Shown: in pieces, positions 30,767-38,977 of the stretch
Numbering within the stretch: the first letter of the stretch is position 1
Layout: the number at the start of each line of letters is the position of its first letter
Origin: Qipengyuania vesicularis
GTDB lineage: Bacteria; Pseudomonadota; Alphaproteobacteria; Sphingomonadales; Sphingomonadaceae
Reading direction: 5' to 3'
DNA length: 64,000 nucleotides
Assembly: GCF_019711415.1 (NCBI RefSeq)
Contig: NZ_JAIGNJ010000001.1
Span: 489,001-553,000 of the forward strand
Made by a program: the position numbers and the translations under genes
Notes under the pieces: generated by a model
Database searches by the model: none
Seen by the model: only the letters and a program-made list of their open reading frames with translations
What the model was told of the DNA's origin: nothing

Positions 30767-31231
30767 TCACACGGGGATAGCGGTCTCGAACTTGACGGTG
30801 CGGAAGGCAAAGGTGCTGTCGCAGCGCTCGACGTCGGGGTCGGTGATCACGTAGTCATCTAGCCACTGGTCGTAGGTCGGCATGTCCTCGAAATGGCCGA
30901 TCAGCACGAAATCGGCCTCGCCCGAAGTGTTGTAGACCTGGCTGATCGCTGGGCATTCGGCCCAGCGTGCTTCGAGCCGGGCATAGCTGTCCCGGCTTTC
31001 GGTTGTGCACCGCATCCCGATAATCACCGTGAAGCCGTTGCGATTGCGATCGAGCAGCGCGACCTCGCTGGCAATCAGCCCCGATTTGCGAAAACGCTGG
31101 AGCCGACGACGCACCGCGCTTTCCGAAAGATTGACCTTGGCTGCCAGGACCAGATTGCTCTGCCGATTGTCGCGCTGGATTTCATCGAGCAGGGCCCGGT
31201 CGAAAGAATCAAGTGCGATCGTATTCGTCAT
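30767..31231 (-). CDS. Lrp/AsnC-family transcriptional regulator
   Basis: The 154-residue protein has an N-terminal winged helix (LDSFDRALLDEIQRDNRQSN, SESAVRRRLQRFRKSGLI) and a C-terminal RAM/AsnC ligand domain with YNTSGEADFVLIGHFEDMPTYDQW. It lies between the epimerase gene (convergent) and a serine hydrolase gene (divergent). The hydrolase or an amino-acid-related locus may be its target. An alternative ATG four codons upstream has a weaker ribosome site. Confidence 0.9.
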   Translation of the reverse strand: MTNTIALDSFDRALLDEIQRDNRQSNLVLAAKVNLSESAVRRRLQRFRKSGLIASEVALLDRNRNGFTVIIGMRCTTESRDSYARLEARWAECPAISQVYNTSGEADFVLIGHFEDMPTYDQWLDDYVITDPDVERCDSTFAFRTVKFETAIPV

Positions 31232-31349
31232 CCCACTCACCATATCTGACGAATCTCGCAATCACCACGCCGAAAAACGACGAATTCATTTCTGGCCGGG
31301 TCTTTCTGGCTCACCTATCAAGCGACTGAAATTAGGACGGAGATTGATC

Positions 31350-32822: not shown

Positions 32823-32859
32823 TTGGCAATCGGCATGGGCGGCGCTAGAGGTGCCGCCC

Positions 32860-35112
32860 ATGAGTGAGAGAACCCCCAAATACGAAGACTGGAAGCCCCT
32901 TGCCGACAAGGAAGTGAAGGGCCGCGACCTCACCTGGCATACGCCCGAGGGCATTGCGGTGAAGCCGCTCTACACCAGCGAAGATACGGCTGACCTTGAT
33001 CCCGGCGTACCGGGAATCGCGCCGTTCACGCGCGGGCCCTATGCCTCGATGTACACCGGCCGTCCGTGGACTATCCGCCAGTATGCGGGCTTCTCGACTG
33101 CCGAGGAATCGAATGCCTTCTATCGCCGCAACCTTGCAGCAGGGCAGAAGGGGCTGAGCGTCGCCTTCGACCTTGCCACACACCGCGGCTATGACAGCGA
33201 CCACCCGCGCGTGGTTGGCGATGTCGGCAAGGCGGGCGTCGCCATCGACACCGTGCGCGACATGGAAATTCTGTTCGACCAGATCCCGCTCGACACCATG
33301 AGCGTGTCGATGACGATGAACGGCGCGGTAATCCCCGTGCTCGCCTTCTACATCGTCGCGGCAGAGCGGCAGGGGGTGAGCAAGGACAAGCTTGCCGGGA
33401 CCATCCAGAACGATATCCTCAAGGAGTTCATGGTCCGCAACACCTATATCTACCCGCCCGAACCGAGCATGCGGATCGTCTCGGACATCATCGCATATAC
33501 CTCGGCCAACATGCCGAAATTCAACAGCATTTCGATCTCGGGCTATCACATGCACGAGGCGGGGGCGACCGCGGTTCAGGAACTCGCCTTCACCATCGCC
33601 GACGGCAAGGAATACGCCAAGCGCGCGATGGAAGCGGGGCTCGATATCGACGCCTTCGCGCCGCGCCTGTCCTTCTTCTGGGGCATCGGCATGAACTTCT
33701 TCATGGAGATCGCCAAGATGCGCGCCGCGCGCCATTTGTGGCACGATGTCATGACCGATCTGGGCGCGCAGAACCCCAAGTCGAAGATGCTGCGCACGCA
33801 TTGCCAGACGAGCGGTGTGAGCTTGCAGGAGCAGGACCCCTACAACAACGTCATCCGCACCACGATCGAGGCGATGGCGGCGGTGCTGGGGGGCACGCAG
33901 TCGCTCCACACCAACGCTCTGGACGAAGCCATCGCGCTGCCGACCGACTTCTCCGCCCGCATCGCCCGCAACACGCAGCTGGTGATCCAGGAAGAGACCG
34001 GCATCACCCATGTCGCCGATCCGCTGGGCGGCAGCTATTATATCGAAAGCCTCACTGCCGCGCTGGTGGAGCAGGCCCGGGCGATGTTGGACGAGGTCGA
34101 AGCGGCGGGCGGCATGACCGAATATGTCGCCAGCGGCAAACCCAAGGCGCAGATCGAGGAAGCGGCGGCTGCCAAGCAGGCGAGCGTCGACAAGGGCGAC
34201 ACGGTCATCGTCGGCGTGAACAAGTACCGCCTGCTCGAAGAGGCCGAGATCGACACGCTCGATATCGACAACCACGCGGTGCGCGAAAGCCAGATCTCGC
34301 GCATCCAGAAGGTGCGCGAGGGCCGCGACGAGGCGGCGTGTCAGGCCGCGCTCAAGTCGCTGACCGAGGCGGCAAGGTCCGATCCTAGCGCCGCCCGTGC
34401 GGCACTGGCTGACGGTCGCGACGAGCGCGGTGTGCCGCTGCGCCCCTCGCAAATGGCCGAGCTTCAGGCGGGCGGGGATGCCAACCTCCTTGCCCGTGCG
34501 GTCGAATGCGCGCGCCAGAATGCGACGCTGGGCGAGATTTCCGCTGCGATGGAGGCGGCCTTCGGGCGCTATGACACCACTCCCAAGCCGGTGAGTGGGG
34601 TCTATTCCAAGGCCTATGCGGGCGATCCGCGCTATCTGCAGGTGGTCGAGGGCGTCCACGCCGTCCAGCGCCGCCTCGGTCGCGCCCCGCGTCTGATGGT
34701 CGCCAAGATGGGTCAGGACGGCCACGACCGCGGCGCGAATGTGATCGCCTCCGCCTTCGCCGACATGGGCTTTGAGGTCGTCTCCGGCCCGCTGTTCCAG
34801 ACACCCGAAGAAAGCGCCCGCATGGCGCTCGACCACGATGTCGACGCTATCGGCGCGAGCAGCCTTGCCGCAGGTCACAAGACGCTCATCCCCGAACTCA
34901 TCGGTCACCTGCGCGACGCAGGCCGAGCGGACATAAAGGTTATCGCCGGCGGCGTAATCCCGCAGAAGGACTACGACTTCCTGCGCGATGCCGGGGTGCA
35001 GGGCATTTATGGGCCGGGCAGCAATGTCGTCGAATGCGCGGCGGATGTGCTCCGCCTGCTAGGCCACAATATGCCGCCTGCGGGCGAGGATCTGGACGAG
35101 GCGGCGGAGTGA
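32860..35112 (+). CDS. scpA: Methylmalonyl-CoA mutase, single-chain
   Basis: The 750-residue protein has an N-terminal TIM-barrel domain ([78 protein letters not shown]). A C-terminal cobalamin domain has [18 protein letters not shown] with His622 as the lower axial ligand. It rearranges (R)-methylmalonyl-CoA to succinyl-CoA. The single-chain form resembles ScpA/MeaA-type homodimers. GAGG precedes the ATG; a GTG three codons earlier is possible. Its stop overlaps the next gene (GTGA). Confidence 0.95.
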
Positions 35113-35585
35113 CTACGAGATTCAAGTTGCCCACGCACGTCCGTGAGCTTGTCGCTGCCAGAAACAAACTTAAGGACCATTTCTCGGATTATGATCTCAG
35201 GTTCACATTCGATGGAAATTTAGTTGGTGACTTGGGGGAGGCTGTCGCGGCTGACTTGTTCGGTCTCACTTTGACGGGCCGAAGCAACGAAGGCATCGAT
35301 GGCTACGCACATGACGGACGCTCAGTTCAGGTGAAAGCTAGTGGAACGCGTCGCGGTCCCGCTTTTCGTCCGGTCGAAACGAAAGCAGACCACCTCATTG
35401 TCTTGCATCTCGATTACGATGCTTGCGAAGGTGAAGTTATCTACAACGGACCCGAAGAGCCTGTTGTCACGCAGCTCTTGCCGGGTGGTTGGCGGGATCA
35501 GCGCACCGCCAATCTACGCGGCCTAATCAAACTCAATGACAGCGTCGCCGACCATGAACGGCTTCCTATCGTCAAAAGCAACTAA
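35109..35585 (+). CDS. PD-(D/E)XK nuclease-like protein in the methylmalonyl-CoA mutase operon
   Basis: The GTG start overlaps the mutase stop. The 158-residue product carries [26 protein letters not shown] and SVQVKASG, in the order Glu ... Asp ... Gln-x-Lys typical of PD-(D/E)XK restriction-type nucleases. A C-terminal part has a [11 protein letters not shown] strand. No partner methylase is present. Base composition is clearly lower in GC than the flanking genes, suggesting acquisition. It could be an endonuclease fragment, a DNA-binding remnant or an active small nuclease. Confidence 0.75.
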
Positions 35586-35644
35586 TGACCCAAATCCGCA
35601 CCGACTTGACCCGCGAGGCCGTAAAGTGAGCCTTCCGATTCCAC

Positions 35645-35730
35645 GTCACGCCGGACTTGATCCGGGGTCTCGCTTTTCTTCGGGCGGGGTCACAAAGGTA
35701 GCGGGACACCGGCTTGGGGGCCGGGGTGAC
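35645..35730. repeat. REP-like palindromic repeat unit
   Basis: The 86-base unit is bounded by GTCAC (35645-35649) and its inverse GTGAC (35726-35730). It contains two stem-loops: CCGGA/TCCGG around CTTGA, and ACCGGC paired with GCCGGGGT. The wording resembles dispersed GTCA...CCGGACTTGATCCGG elements common between genes in sphingomonads and relatives. It fills most of the gap between the nuclease-like gene and the DUF3445 gene. Confidence 0.6.
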
Positions 35731-35744
35731 GGTGGAGTGAATAG

Positions 35745-36548
35745 TTGACCCTCGGCTTCTCCGTCGACGAATTGCTGCCCAGAGCTCGTGGCGGAGGCGT
35801 GCTCAAGATGGGGCTTGCCAAGCTGGACGAGAGCGAGTGGCTCCAACCCAATCCTGACCTCGCGGTACGCGAAACGGGGTTTGAAGCCTATCCCGAAGGC
35901 ATCCAGATTTCACCAGAAGGCGAGGCTCCGGGTGCGGAACTTGCCGCCATGCTCGGCCTGTCGGGCGGCCTGCCCGAAGCGGCTCGTGCCCATCACGAGG
36001 ACATGTGCCTCTTGACCCTGCAACCCGGGGACGAGCAATACCGCCTTGTCGGCGCCGCAGTTGCTTGGCCCTCCGACTGGACACCCGCCGACAAGATGGG
36101 GCTGCCCTTGCGTGCGCTCCATGCACCGATCCAGGGCTATGAAGAGCAGCTCGCGACCGGTGTCGATCACTTCATGGCCAAGCTCAAGCCGGGCGCGATC
36201 TACGGGCGTTGCAACTGGTTCATCGCCGCGACCGGCGACAGGCGCTGGGTAGCCGGGCCGCCGGAGCAGGCCTTTGCCCATGTCACCTGCGACAATGCGG
36301 GCGAAACGCTGTTCGTGCGCTCTGAACGCCAGACGCTGCGCCGCCTGCCCGAAACCGGCTCGATCCTGTTCACGATCGGCATATACGTTTCGCCGCTCGG
36401 CGAACTTTCGCACGACAACCAGCAGCGCCTCGCCTCCGCAATCGCCTCGCTTCTGCAAGGCGAGGGCGACCGTCGCGGCGCAGGGGCTTACGCGGAAGCA
36501 TTAATCGGCTATGCGGCCGGTCAGAGAGAAGAGAATTCGAGGTATTAA
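35745..36548 (+). CDS. DUF3445 protein (heme-dependent oxidative N-demethylase family)
   Basis: The TTG start is fixed by a stop codon immediately upstream in frame and a GGTGGAG site. The 267-residue protein begins GFSVDELLPRARGGGVLKMG and has QPGDEQYRLVGAAVAWPSDW, HFMAKLKPGAIYGRCNWFIA, LFVRSERQTLRRLPETGSIL and TIGIYVSPL, the DUF3445 pattern. Some family members are heme proteins that oxidatively demethylate amines. Its stop overlaps the next ATG (TAATG), coupling it to the winged-helix-PccA gene. Confidence 0.87.
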   Translation: MTLGFSVDELLPRARGGGVLKMGLAKLDESEWLQPNPDLAVRETGFEAYPEGIQISPEGEAPGAELAAMLGLSGGLPEAARAHHEDMCLLTLQPGDEQYRLVGAAVAWPSDWTPADKMGLPLRALHAPIQGYEEQLATGVDHFMAKLKPGAIYGRCNWFIAATGDRRWVAGPPEQAFAHVTCDNAGETLFVRSERQTLRRLPETGSILFTIGIYVSPLGELSHDNQQRLASAIASLLQGEGDRRGAGAYAEALIGYAAGQREENSRY

Positions 36549-38977
36549 TGCTGCTGCTACCGCGCACACCTGACGTTGAAGAGGCTCTTTTACACTTGCT
36601 CCAAGAGTTAGGTGGGATCTCGAAACCAGCGGAAGTCTATGGCCCCTTGGCAAGGTTGTTCGGGCTGAGTGAAGAAGCGCAGAATGCTTTGATGCCCCGA
36701 CAGAATGAGCGGCACTGGGATAACCGCGTGAGGACAGCAAGAAAGCATCTAGTTGAAAGAGGACTCCTCGACAATTCCGTTCACGGTACGTGGTCACTCA
36801 CGGCGGACGGACGCGACGCCCAAACAGCATCCGCGCACGAGTTCAGTCGACGTGAGAAAGAAGAGGTCAAGTCAGGTGGATTTGAACCAGGGAGGACGGG
36901 TTTATCTCAACCATTCAAGAAGATCCTGATCGCCAACCGCGGTGAAATTGCCTGCCGTGTCATCAAGACCGCGCGCCGCATGGGCATCCAGACGGTTGCC
37001 GTCTACTCCGATGCCGATGCGCGCGCGCCTTTCGTGCGCATGGCGGACGAGGCGGTGCATATCGGACCCGCACCTGCGGCGGAAAGCTATCTGATCGCGG
37101 ACAAGATCATCGATGCCTGCAAGCAGACCGGCGCGGAAGCGGTGCACCCGGGCTATGGATTCCTCTCCGAGCGCGCGAGTTTCGTCGAGGCGCTCGAGGC
37201 GGAAAACATCGCCTTCATCGGCCCTCCGCCGAACGCCATCGCGGCGATGGGTGACAAGATCGAATCCAAGAAGCTGGCCAAGGAAGCGGGCGTCAATGTC
37301 GTCCCCGGCTTCGTCGGCGAAATCCGTGATACGGACCATGCCGTCGAAATCAGCAACGACATCGGCTATCCGGTCATGATGAAGGCCAGCGCAGGCGGCG
37401 GCGGCAAGGGCATGCGCCTTGCCTATTCTGAGAAGGACGTGCGCGAAGGCTTCGAGGCGACCAAGCGCGAGGGCCTCAACTCCTTTGGCGACGACCGCGT
37501 TTTCATCGAAAAGTTCATCGAAAACCCGCGCCACATCGAGATCCAGATCCTCGGCGACAAGCACGGCAACGTGATCTACCTCAACGAGCGCGAATGCTCG
37601 ATCCAGCGCCGCCACCAGAAGGTGGTCGAGGAAGCGCCGTCGCCCTTCGTGACGCCCAAGATGCGCAAGGCCATGGGTGAACAATGCGTCGCGCTGTCAA
37701 AGGCGGTGAACTATCACAGCGCGGGCACGGTCGAACTGATCGTCTCCGGCGCGGACAAGTCGGGGGAGAGCTTCTACTTCCTCGAAATGAACACCCGCCT
37801 GCAGGTGGAGCATCCGGTCACCGAGGCGATCACCGGCGTCGACCTCGTCGAGCAGATGATCCGTGTCGCGGCCGGCGAGAAGCTCGCCATGACGCAAGAC
37901 GACGTCAAGATCGACGGCTGGGCGATCGAGAACCGCGTCTATGCCGAAGACCCCTATCGCGGCTTCCTGCCCTCGACGGGCCGCCTGGTGCGCTATCAGC
38001 CGCCGGTTGAGCCCTGGACCGATGATGGCGAGGCCAATGGCCGCCGCGGTCTGGCGGGTATTCGCGTGGACGATGGCGTGTTCGAAGGCGGCGAAGTCTC
38101 GATGTTCTACGACCCGATGATCGCCAAGCTGGTGACCTGGGGCGAGACACGTGACGAGGCTGCCGACCTGCAGATCGCCGCGCTCGATGCCTTCCGTATC
38201 GAGGGGCTCGGCCACAATATCGATTTCCTCAGCGCCATCATGCAGCATGAGCGCTTCCGTTCGGGCGAACTCACCACGGGCTTCATCGCCGAGGAATATC
38301 CAGATGGCTTCGAAGGCGCTCCGGCGAGCGACCAGCTGAAGCGGGTGCTTGCAGCCGTGGGCGGCGTGATCGCAACCGCGGATGCCGACCGCGCACGGCG
38401 GATCGATCAGCAGCTCGACGGCGAGGAATATGCTCCCGGCGACTGGACGATCCGCATCGGCGAGCGTGCAGAAGGCTCGACCACGCACGAAGTGGTGCTC
38501 GAGGAGAACGCGCTCACGGTCGATGGCGAGCAGGTCACGATCGAAATGCAGTACACGCCCGGCGATGCGATGGTGGATGTTGTCCTGTGGGATAACGAGG
38601 CAGGCGAGGATGCCGATCCGCTCGACATCTATACGATCCAGCTCAAGCCTACGCGGACGGGCTATGCGATGACCGCGCGCGGCGCGACGCACCAGCTGCG
38701 CATCCTCCAGACGCGGATCGCGCATCTCGTGGGGCACATGATCGAGAAGGAACCGCCCGATCTTTCCAAGATGCTCATCTGCCCGATGCCCGGGCTGTTG
38801 GTGAAGCTGCACGTCGCAGAGGGTGAGGAGGTCCAGCCCGGCCAACCGCTCGCCACGGTGGAGGCGATGAAGATGGAGAACATCCTGCGCGCCGAAAAAC
38901 AGGCCACGGTTGGCAAGATCAACGCGGGCGAGGGCGATTCGCTGGCGGTGGACGAGGTGATCCTGGAACTCGAATAG
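36548..38977 (+). CDS. pccA: Propionyl-CoA carboxylase alpha subunit with in-frame Mrr_N-type winged-helix extension
   Basis: Residues 1 to about 95 form a winged helix like the N-terminal domain of Mrr-type restriction proteins (PDVEEALLHLLQELGGISKP, HWDNRVRTARKHLVERGLLD, GTWSLTADGRD). After a linker of about 23 residues PccA begins at QPFKKILIANRGEIACRV and runs complete: biotin carboxylase (ASAGGGGKGMRLAYSE, FLEMNTRLQVEHPVTE), BT domain, and biotinyl domain with Lys775 in EAMKMEN. The total is 809 residues against about 670-690 normally. A GGAGG site at 36891-36895 faces TTA at 36902, so no standard separate start exists. The extension is lower in GC. Confidence 0.9.
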   Translation: MLLLPRTPDVEEALLHLLQELGGISKPAEVYGPLARLFGLSEEAQNALMPRQNERHWDNRVRTARKHLVERGLLDNSVHGTWSLTADGRDAQTASAHEFSRREKEEVKSGGFEPGRTGLSQPFKKILIANRGEIACRVIKTARRMGIQTVAVYSDADARAPFVRMADEAVHIGPAPAAESYLIADKIIDACKQTGAEAVHPGYGFLSERASFVEALEAENIAFIGPPPNAIAAMGDKIESKKLAKEAGVNVVPGFVGEIRDTDHAVEISNDIGYPVMMKASAGGGGKGMRLAYSEKDVREGFEATKREGLNSFGDDRVFIEKFIENPRHIEIQILGDKHGNVIYLNERECSIQRRHQKVVEEAPSPFVTPKMRKAMGEQCVALSKAVNYHSAGTVELIVSGADKSGESFYFLEMNTRLQVEHPVTEAITGVDLVEQMIRVAAGEKLAMTQDDVKIDGWAIENRVYAEDPYRGFLPSTGRLVRYQPPVEPWTDDGEANGRRGLAGIRVDDGVFEGGEVSMFYDPMIAKLVTWGETRDEAADLQIAALDAFRIEGLGHNIDFLSAIMQHERFRSGELTTGFIAEEYPDGFEGAPASDQLKRVLAAVGGVIATADADRARRIDQQLDGEEYAPGDWTIRIGERAEGSTTHEVVLEENALTVDGEQVTIEMQYTPGDAMVDVVLWDNEAGEDADPLDIYTIQLKPTRTGYAMTARGATHQLRILQTRIAHLVGHMIEKEPPDLSKMLICPMPGLLVKLHVAEGEEVQPGQPLATVEAMKMENILRAEKQATVGKINAGEGDSLAVDEVILELE

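Follow-up and report, generated by a model that had tools for sequence, protein, structure and literature searches.

The window analysed here is a stretch of 64,000 nucleotides from Qipengyuania vesicularis in which pccA, the gene for the alpha subunit of propionyl-CoA carboxylase (PccA), shares a single open reading frame (ORF) with a DNA-binding-type domain. This ORF (36548-38977, plus strand) starts with ATG and encodes 809 amino acids. Residues 1-98 (36548..36841, +) are an Mrr_N-type winged helix, a low-GC (guanine plus cytosine) insert recognized by Pfam. Residues 99-122 (36842..36913, +) are a linker, delimited by codon comparison and a start-codon census, whose last codon, CCA, falls at the position where relatives start pccA. 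Residues 123-809 (36914..38974, +) are a complete PccA, as indicated by Pfam, a solved-structure match and the ratio of nonsynonymous to synonymous substitution rates (dN/dS). Mrr_N (PF14338) matches residues 13-91 with an E-value of 5.7e-15 and 55.7 bits against a cut-off of 29.5, and Biotin_carb_N (123-231), CPSase_L_D2, Biotin_carb_C, PCC_BT (601-734) and Biotin_lipoyl (745-808) all exceed their cut-offs, so that the biotin carboxylase, BT and biotinyl domains are all present. The PccA part carries the biotin motif EAMKM. Among solved structures the nearest is 3n6r chain A (Propionyl-CoA carboxylase alpha subunit), which matches residues 123-809 at full length; compared with an ordinary PccA, the window protein has 122 extra N-terminal residues and no start codon of its own. 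No nuclease family that could represent the Mrr catalytic domain was found among the 16 Pfam matches of this protein up to an E-value of 1. A preliminary description of this DNA had proposed an N-terminal Mrr-type winged helix followed by a complete PccA in 809 residues, and both the open frame and Pfam bear this out.

Initiation of the fusion is expected at 36539..36550 (+), where a GAGG ribosome site (36539-36542) lies five bases ahead of ATG 36548, and where this ATG shares one base with the stop codon TAA (36546-36548) that ends the preceding ORF 35745-36548, forming a TAATG overlap. No other in-frame start is present between the upstream in-frame stop at 36323 and ATG 36548. In-frame ATG, GTG or TTG codons occur at positions 1, 17, 34, 37, 48, 49 and 61 of the ORF and then at 145, already inside the biotin carboxylase domain; the codon scan found none in codons 62-144, which confirms the earlier observation that no such codon separates the winged helix from the carboxylase. 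The two other frames both contain stops between 36549 and the pccA part.

To place the native start, the pccA start codon was read across three genera, in 69 genomes that include the window's (44 of 60 from the window genus, 21 Sphingopyxis and 4 from the genus of a metagenome-assembled genome, or MAG, considered below). The start is ATG in 50 of them, TTG in 13, GTG in 5 and CCA in one, the window, which is the sole genome without ATG, TTG or GTG at this site. In relatives the start codon immediately precedes a Phe codon, and its counterpart in the window is CCA 36911-36913. The GGAGG (36891-36895) and TTA (36902-36904) reported in the preliminary description are present as claimed. Its suggestion that PccA should start at the TTA does not hold, as the equivalent codon is the CCA three codons downstream, and its expectation of a TTG start is partly right, agreeing with 13 of the 69 genomes and departing from the ATG of 50 and the GTG of 5. 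Nor is the loss of the start by a single TTG-to-TTA change supported: the 50 bases ahead of TTC 36914 resemble the leaders of 13 loci, eight of them with a TTG start, no better than shuffles do (p 0.39-0.89 overall, 0.79-0.84 for the eight with TTG). The idea that the GGAGG/TTA stretch is homologous to the relatives' GGAGG-TTG leader was rejected, as none of the 13 loci rose above shuffles.

Searching with the whole protein in 36 other same-genus genomes gave a PccA match at an E-value of 0 in 34, and in all 34 the best match left residues 1-77 uncovered. The window genome has only one close PccA, the next matches standing at 54% and 49%. The dN/dS of pccA is 0.045-0.083 between the window and seven relatives and 0.026-0.081 among those relatives, values that place the PccA part under a protein-level constraint like theirs. 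We infer that PccA would be made in this organism, and made only as the fusion.

The winged helix was then used alone as the query, blind to the partner gene. It was matched in 26 of 397 family genomes including the window, with G259 and G093 as the strongest of the others, and a second family-wide search, again over 397 genomes, revealed no further carrier. Matches were present in 21 of 296 order genomes, G558 and G561 among them. In genome_contigs two loci were recovered, from Sphingopyxis indica DS15 (G558) and from the MAG SZAS KAN-30 PROT-KAN-1 (G259). In both, the winged helix stands directly before pccA and in frame. The S. indica domain is 70% identical to that of the window and its linker is similar: over residues 93-108, the 16 codons comprise 10 silent differences, 4 residue-changing ones and 2 identical codons. 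The MAG fusion is an 831-codon open frame, or 817 residues counted from GTG. The fusion occurs in 1 of 80 Sphingopyxis genomes and in 1 of 6 genomes of the MAG's genus. G093 carries the same winged helix on the C-terminus of IlvN with no intervening stop (L094:880-1758), the next gene, ten bases on, being ilvC by eye, and G561 has a stand-alone copy of 90 residues. By eye, the other winged-helix hits were Mrr-type or McrB-like nucleoside triphosphatase (NTPase) proteins, the exceptions being two spurious hits in an unrelated enzyme (L056, L062), and one hit at a contig end (L043) was left out of this reading.

Since the searches were blind to the partner, recurrence in two species indicates that the fusion is more than chance, and the same join in two other species together with a similar one on another enzyme in a fourth suggests more than an accident. 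Among the options left by the preliminary description, the supported one is fusion of a DNA-binding domain to a biotin enzyme, on the strength of this recurrence, the open frame, the good ribosome site at 36548 and the complete PccA.

Modelled alone (residues 1-108), the domain gave an AlphaFold pLDDT (predicted local distance difference test) of 84.9, and Foldseek returned mostly winged helices (MukE, the cullin winged-helix B domain, MntR, a putative transcriptional regulator and F93), the best E-value being 3.3e-3, so that no match reached 1e-3. The full-length model, with a mean pLDDT of 46.6 and a shallow alignment, was left unused. PADLOC gave a weak restriction-type match of the winged helix to mREase_IV (E 2.4e-5). 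Plasmid relatives of the MAG domain amount to 17 records, 7 in restriction endonucleases, 6 in site-specific DNA-methyltransferases and 4 without a named feature; together with the mREase_IV match these fit a DNA-reading module. The window protein shares with Mrr-type restriction enzymes both Mrr_N above its cut-off and the pattern NRV..A[RK]..L in the helix of residues 56-70, and it differs from them in that its chain has no nuclease domain, clusters with four other nuclease-free copies and has a metabolic partner. Winged-helix domains have been described as readers of N6-methyladenine combined with several nuclease types, with multiple separate fusion events suggested (PMC11037411). The likeness to those endonucleases lies in a small winged-helix module with varied partners; the partners described there are nuclease and NTPase domains, in contrast to the metabolic enzyme found here.

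The origin of the fusions was addressed by comparing ungapped DNA identity across 190 codons of pccA, counted from its third. Identity reached 0.905 between the window and its own genus and 0.925 between S. indica and other Sphingopyxis, and it was 0.818 between the window and S. indica and 0.847 between the MAG and one genus mate. Each pccA is thus closest to its own genus, indicating that pccA did not move along with the winged helix. The inserts are low in GC (0.546 in the window at 36548-36913, 0.522 and 0.559 in the other PccA fusions, 0.537 in the IlvN case), whereas the genes compared alongside them have 0.635-0.66 and the window pccA has 0.635. Because pccA is native in each host and the inserts are of low GC, the pattern looks like three separate insertions at the same pccA codon.

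Between the window and S. indica, 84 of 108 winged-helix codons differ, 52 silently and 32 with a residue change (33, 26 and 75 differences at the first, second and third codon position), a distribution that places the winged helix under protein-level constraint. The silent-site distance of this pair was not computable (value -1), which we read as saturation; the two domains diverged long before the present insertions or came from different donors. In a tree of 40 domains, with rows collected by similarity to these very copies, the four copies that are fused and the one that stands alone, all nuclease-free, are set apart together by a branch supported at 99/95, the stand-alone row being a long branch. 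In a class sample the winged helix was found in 12 of 385 genomes at E-values up to 1e-9, the window being the sole carrier of this nuclease-free clade. The window's own genome has no second copy at an E-value of 1 or below. The window domain matched one plasmid record, from Kovacikia, whose ORF is by eye an ordinary Mrr protein, and the G093 domain matched no plasmid. A phage origin was rejected, as no relative was present in viral_contigs or in phages.

In the explanation we propose, a horizontally moving gene for a nuclease-free Mrr_N-type winged helix would insert in the junction ahead of pccA and be joined to it in frame, taking the place of the former leader and start codon. Initiation at ATG 36548, with its own GAGG and its overlap with the upstream stop, would yield one 809-residue chain of winged helix and PccA, and the holoenzyme would hold one winged helix per alpha subunit. 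The domain would still bind DNA and regulate, so that the enzyme could act at a promoter or at modified DNA much as the trigger enzymes BirA (PMC4016012) and PutA do. In those proteins, too, a metabolic enzyme and a DNA-binding-type domain share one chain; the window enzyme is unrelated to them, and its DNA binding and regulation are putative. We consider it fairly likely that the window holds a real and retained fusion of winged helix and PccA whose domain possibly still works. More tentatively, and as a possibility short of a likelihood, a nuclease-free winged-helix family may be moving among sphingomonads and may repeatedly have been fused to metabolic enzymes, in three cases to PccA of propionate metabolism and in one to IlvN of branched-chain amino acid metabolism, yielding DNA-binding enzymes that would link flux to transcription or DNA modification, with the window enzyme existing only as a fusion after the loss of its own start.

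Few well-known enzymes have a built-in DNA-binding domain, and no description of this fusion was found in full-text searches of an open-access library, judged by titles and abstract openings. A domain from the world of restriction has apparently been joined three times to the same enzyme, at the same codon, in frame and on a native pccA, and once to another enzyme. Such cases would form a natural replicate series for the question of whether new DNA-binding enzymes arise via the capture of mobile domains.

The junction ahead of pccA is a slot in which genes are exchanged. Upstream of the fusion lie the methylmalonyl-CoA mutase gene scpA (32851..35112, +; Pfam), a low-GC DUF6998 gene (35109..35585, +; Pfam, GC and locus comparison) that overlaps the scpA stop through GTGA, and, directly before the fusion, a HODM_asu-like gene (35745..36548, +; Pfam) that each of nine genus relatives compared also has at this place. 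Eight of these nine have the order scpA-bioB-HODM-pccA, and the ninth (G468, L153) has no bioB at the locus, like the window, in which bioB is absent from 35112-35745 between scpA and HODM and DUF6998 occupies its place. The gap between HODM and pccA measures about 650-700 base pairs in 7 of the 9 relatives; in the window the winged helix replaces it. Of 40 genomes, two matched DUF6998, those of the window and G026, each at the pccA locus, and a third carrier, G019, has it just before pccA. In G026 it lies exactly between bioB and pccA (L185:9168-9638) with GTGA and TGATG overlaps. DUF6998 is a small low-GC ORF, located at the pccA locus in three genomes of the genus (the window's; L185; L034 and L197), with PD-(D/E)XK-like motifs (GDLGEA, GIDG, VQVKAS) by eye. 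It had no relatives in viral_contigs, 10 plasmid records each below 60% identity, and no paper that we could find.

This setting makes plausible, if somewhat short of evenly balanced, an alternative in which the winged helix is a tolerated passenger: the slot would constantly acquire small horizontal ORFs, and a winged helix without a stop would be kept as an inert N-terminal tail. An insert that removes the leader would survive only where PccA translation is kept, through a stop-start overlap or an in-frame fusion. The gene preceding pccA is highly variable across the 69 genomes, with unrelated genes in relatives (LprI-like, DUF6998 and ORFs without a Pfam match), and in 22 of the 69 the pccA start overlaps an upstream stop as TGATG or TAATG, the overlapping frame having at least 69 codons in 21 of the 22. 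Overlaps of one and four bases couple translation (PMC10666635), and DUF6998 sits seamlessly in G026. The passenger account leaves unexplained, however, why the same rare winged-helix clade appears three times at this codon and again on IlvN. Nor does it account for the absence of fusion among the other slot genes: all three slots holding the winged helix are fused (3/3), against none of the 66 others. Among those 66, 27 have an in-frame extension of at least 45 residues. These look like wrong-frame readings; 26 were scanned, 25 without a Pfam match and one far below the cut-off (Emfourin, E 0.056), the single unscanned one being the 45-residue extension of G597. The likelihoods we attach to a working fusion and to a passenger overlap, as the passenger account shares the fusion and differs solely in whether the domain acts.

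Several points weigh against the proposed explanation. The pccA of S. indica is interrupted (L091:5944-6823) by an element, probably of the IS6 family, that contains a transposase ORF and is flanked at either end by the 8-base target duplication CTTCGGCG; the fused enzyme of this species has probably been lost, so that at least one carrier would not be keeping it, as the passenger account would have it. The native-start ATG is retained in S. indica and the MAG, where an unfused PccA may also be made, and the G093 linker has an in-frame TTG that makes a separate product possible. The Foldseek matches are generic winged helices, among which cullin and MukE are not transcription factors and some do not bind DNA, and no solved chain was related to the domain by sequence at an E-value of 0.1 or below. 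The MAG pccA has ungapped identities of 0.742 and 0.421 to two other genus mates, where indels are likely. No close relative carries the window's fusion, so post-fusion selection is not measurable. The association of domain and fusion (Fisher p 1.9e-5) treats related genomes as independent and was framed post hoc, and the census covers 44 of the 60 window-genus genomes.

It is improbable that translation of an unfused PccA begins at a non-canonical codon (TTA 36902, ACG 36896, ATC 36923 or CTG 36926), with the winged helix as a separate or accidental product. Near-cognate codons are present and six bases separate GGAGG 36891-36895 from the TTA, yet the likeness of this GGAGG stretch to relatives is at chance level, the TTA lies off the ancestral start codon, and with no stop between winged helix and PccA the fusion would be made regardless. 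The start at TTA or another unusual codon offered in the preliminary description thus finds no positive support. Equally doubtful is a split restriction system in which the winged helix borne by PccA cooperates with the nuclease-like DUF6998 protein upstream and PccA serves as the carrier. Both are low-GC inserts at one locus, both have weak restriction-type PADLOC matches (DUF6998 to mREase_II, E 2.4e-5), and the three DUF6998 genes found all stand at or next to pccA; however, DUF6998 was unmatched in four other genomes carrying the winged helix (G558, G259, G093 and G561), and in G026 and G019 it occurs without a winged helix at the pccA junction. An assembly or base-calling error merging two genes, which would suit a start-less version known from a single genome, is the least probable explanation, as CCA and ATG disagree at every position, so that no one wrong base, as once suggested, restores the ancestral start, the same join occurs in two other species, and the window genome is reported as 100% complete in 4 contigs with 0.04 contamination.

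Two further ORFs were observed. In G102 (L161), a 167-residue ORF of 43% GC ends at the pccA start with a TAATG overlap and has no Pfam match up to an E-value of 0.5. On the minus strand of the window, an ORF at 30767-31261 is by eye an Lrp/AsnC-type regulator, located beside genes that are, also by eye, an epimerase and the mutase.

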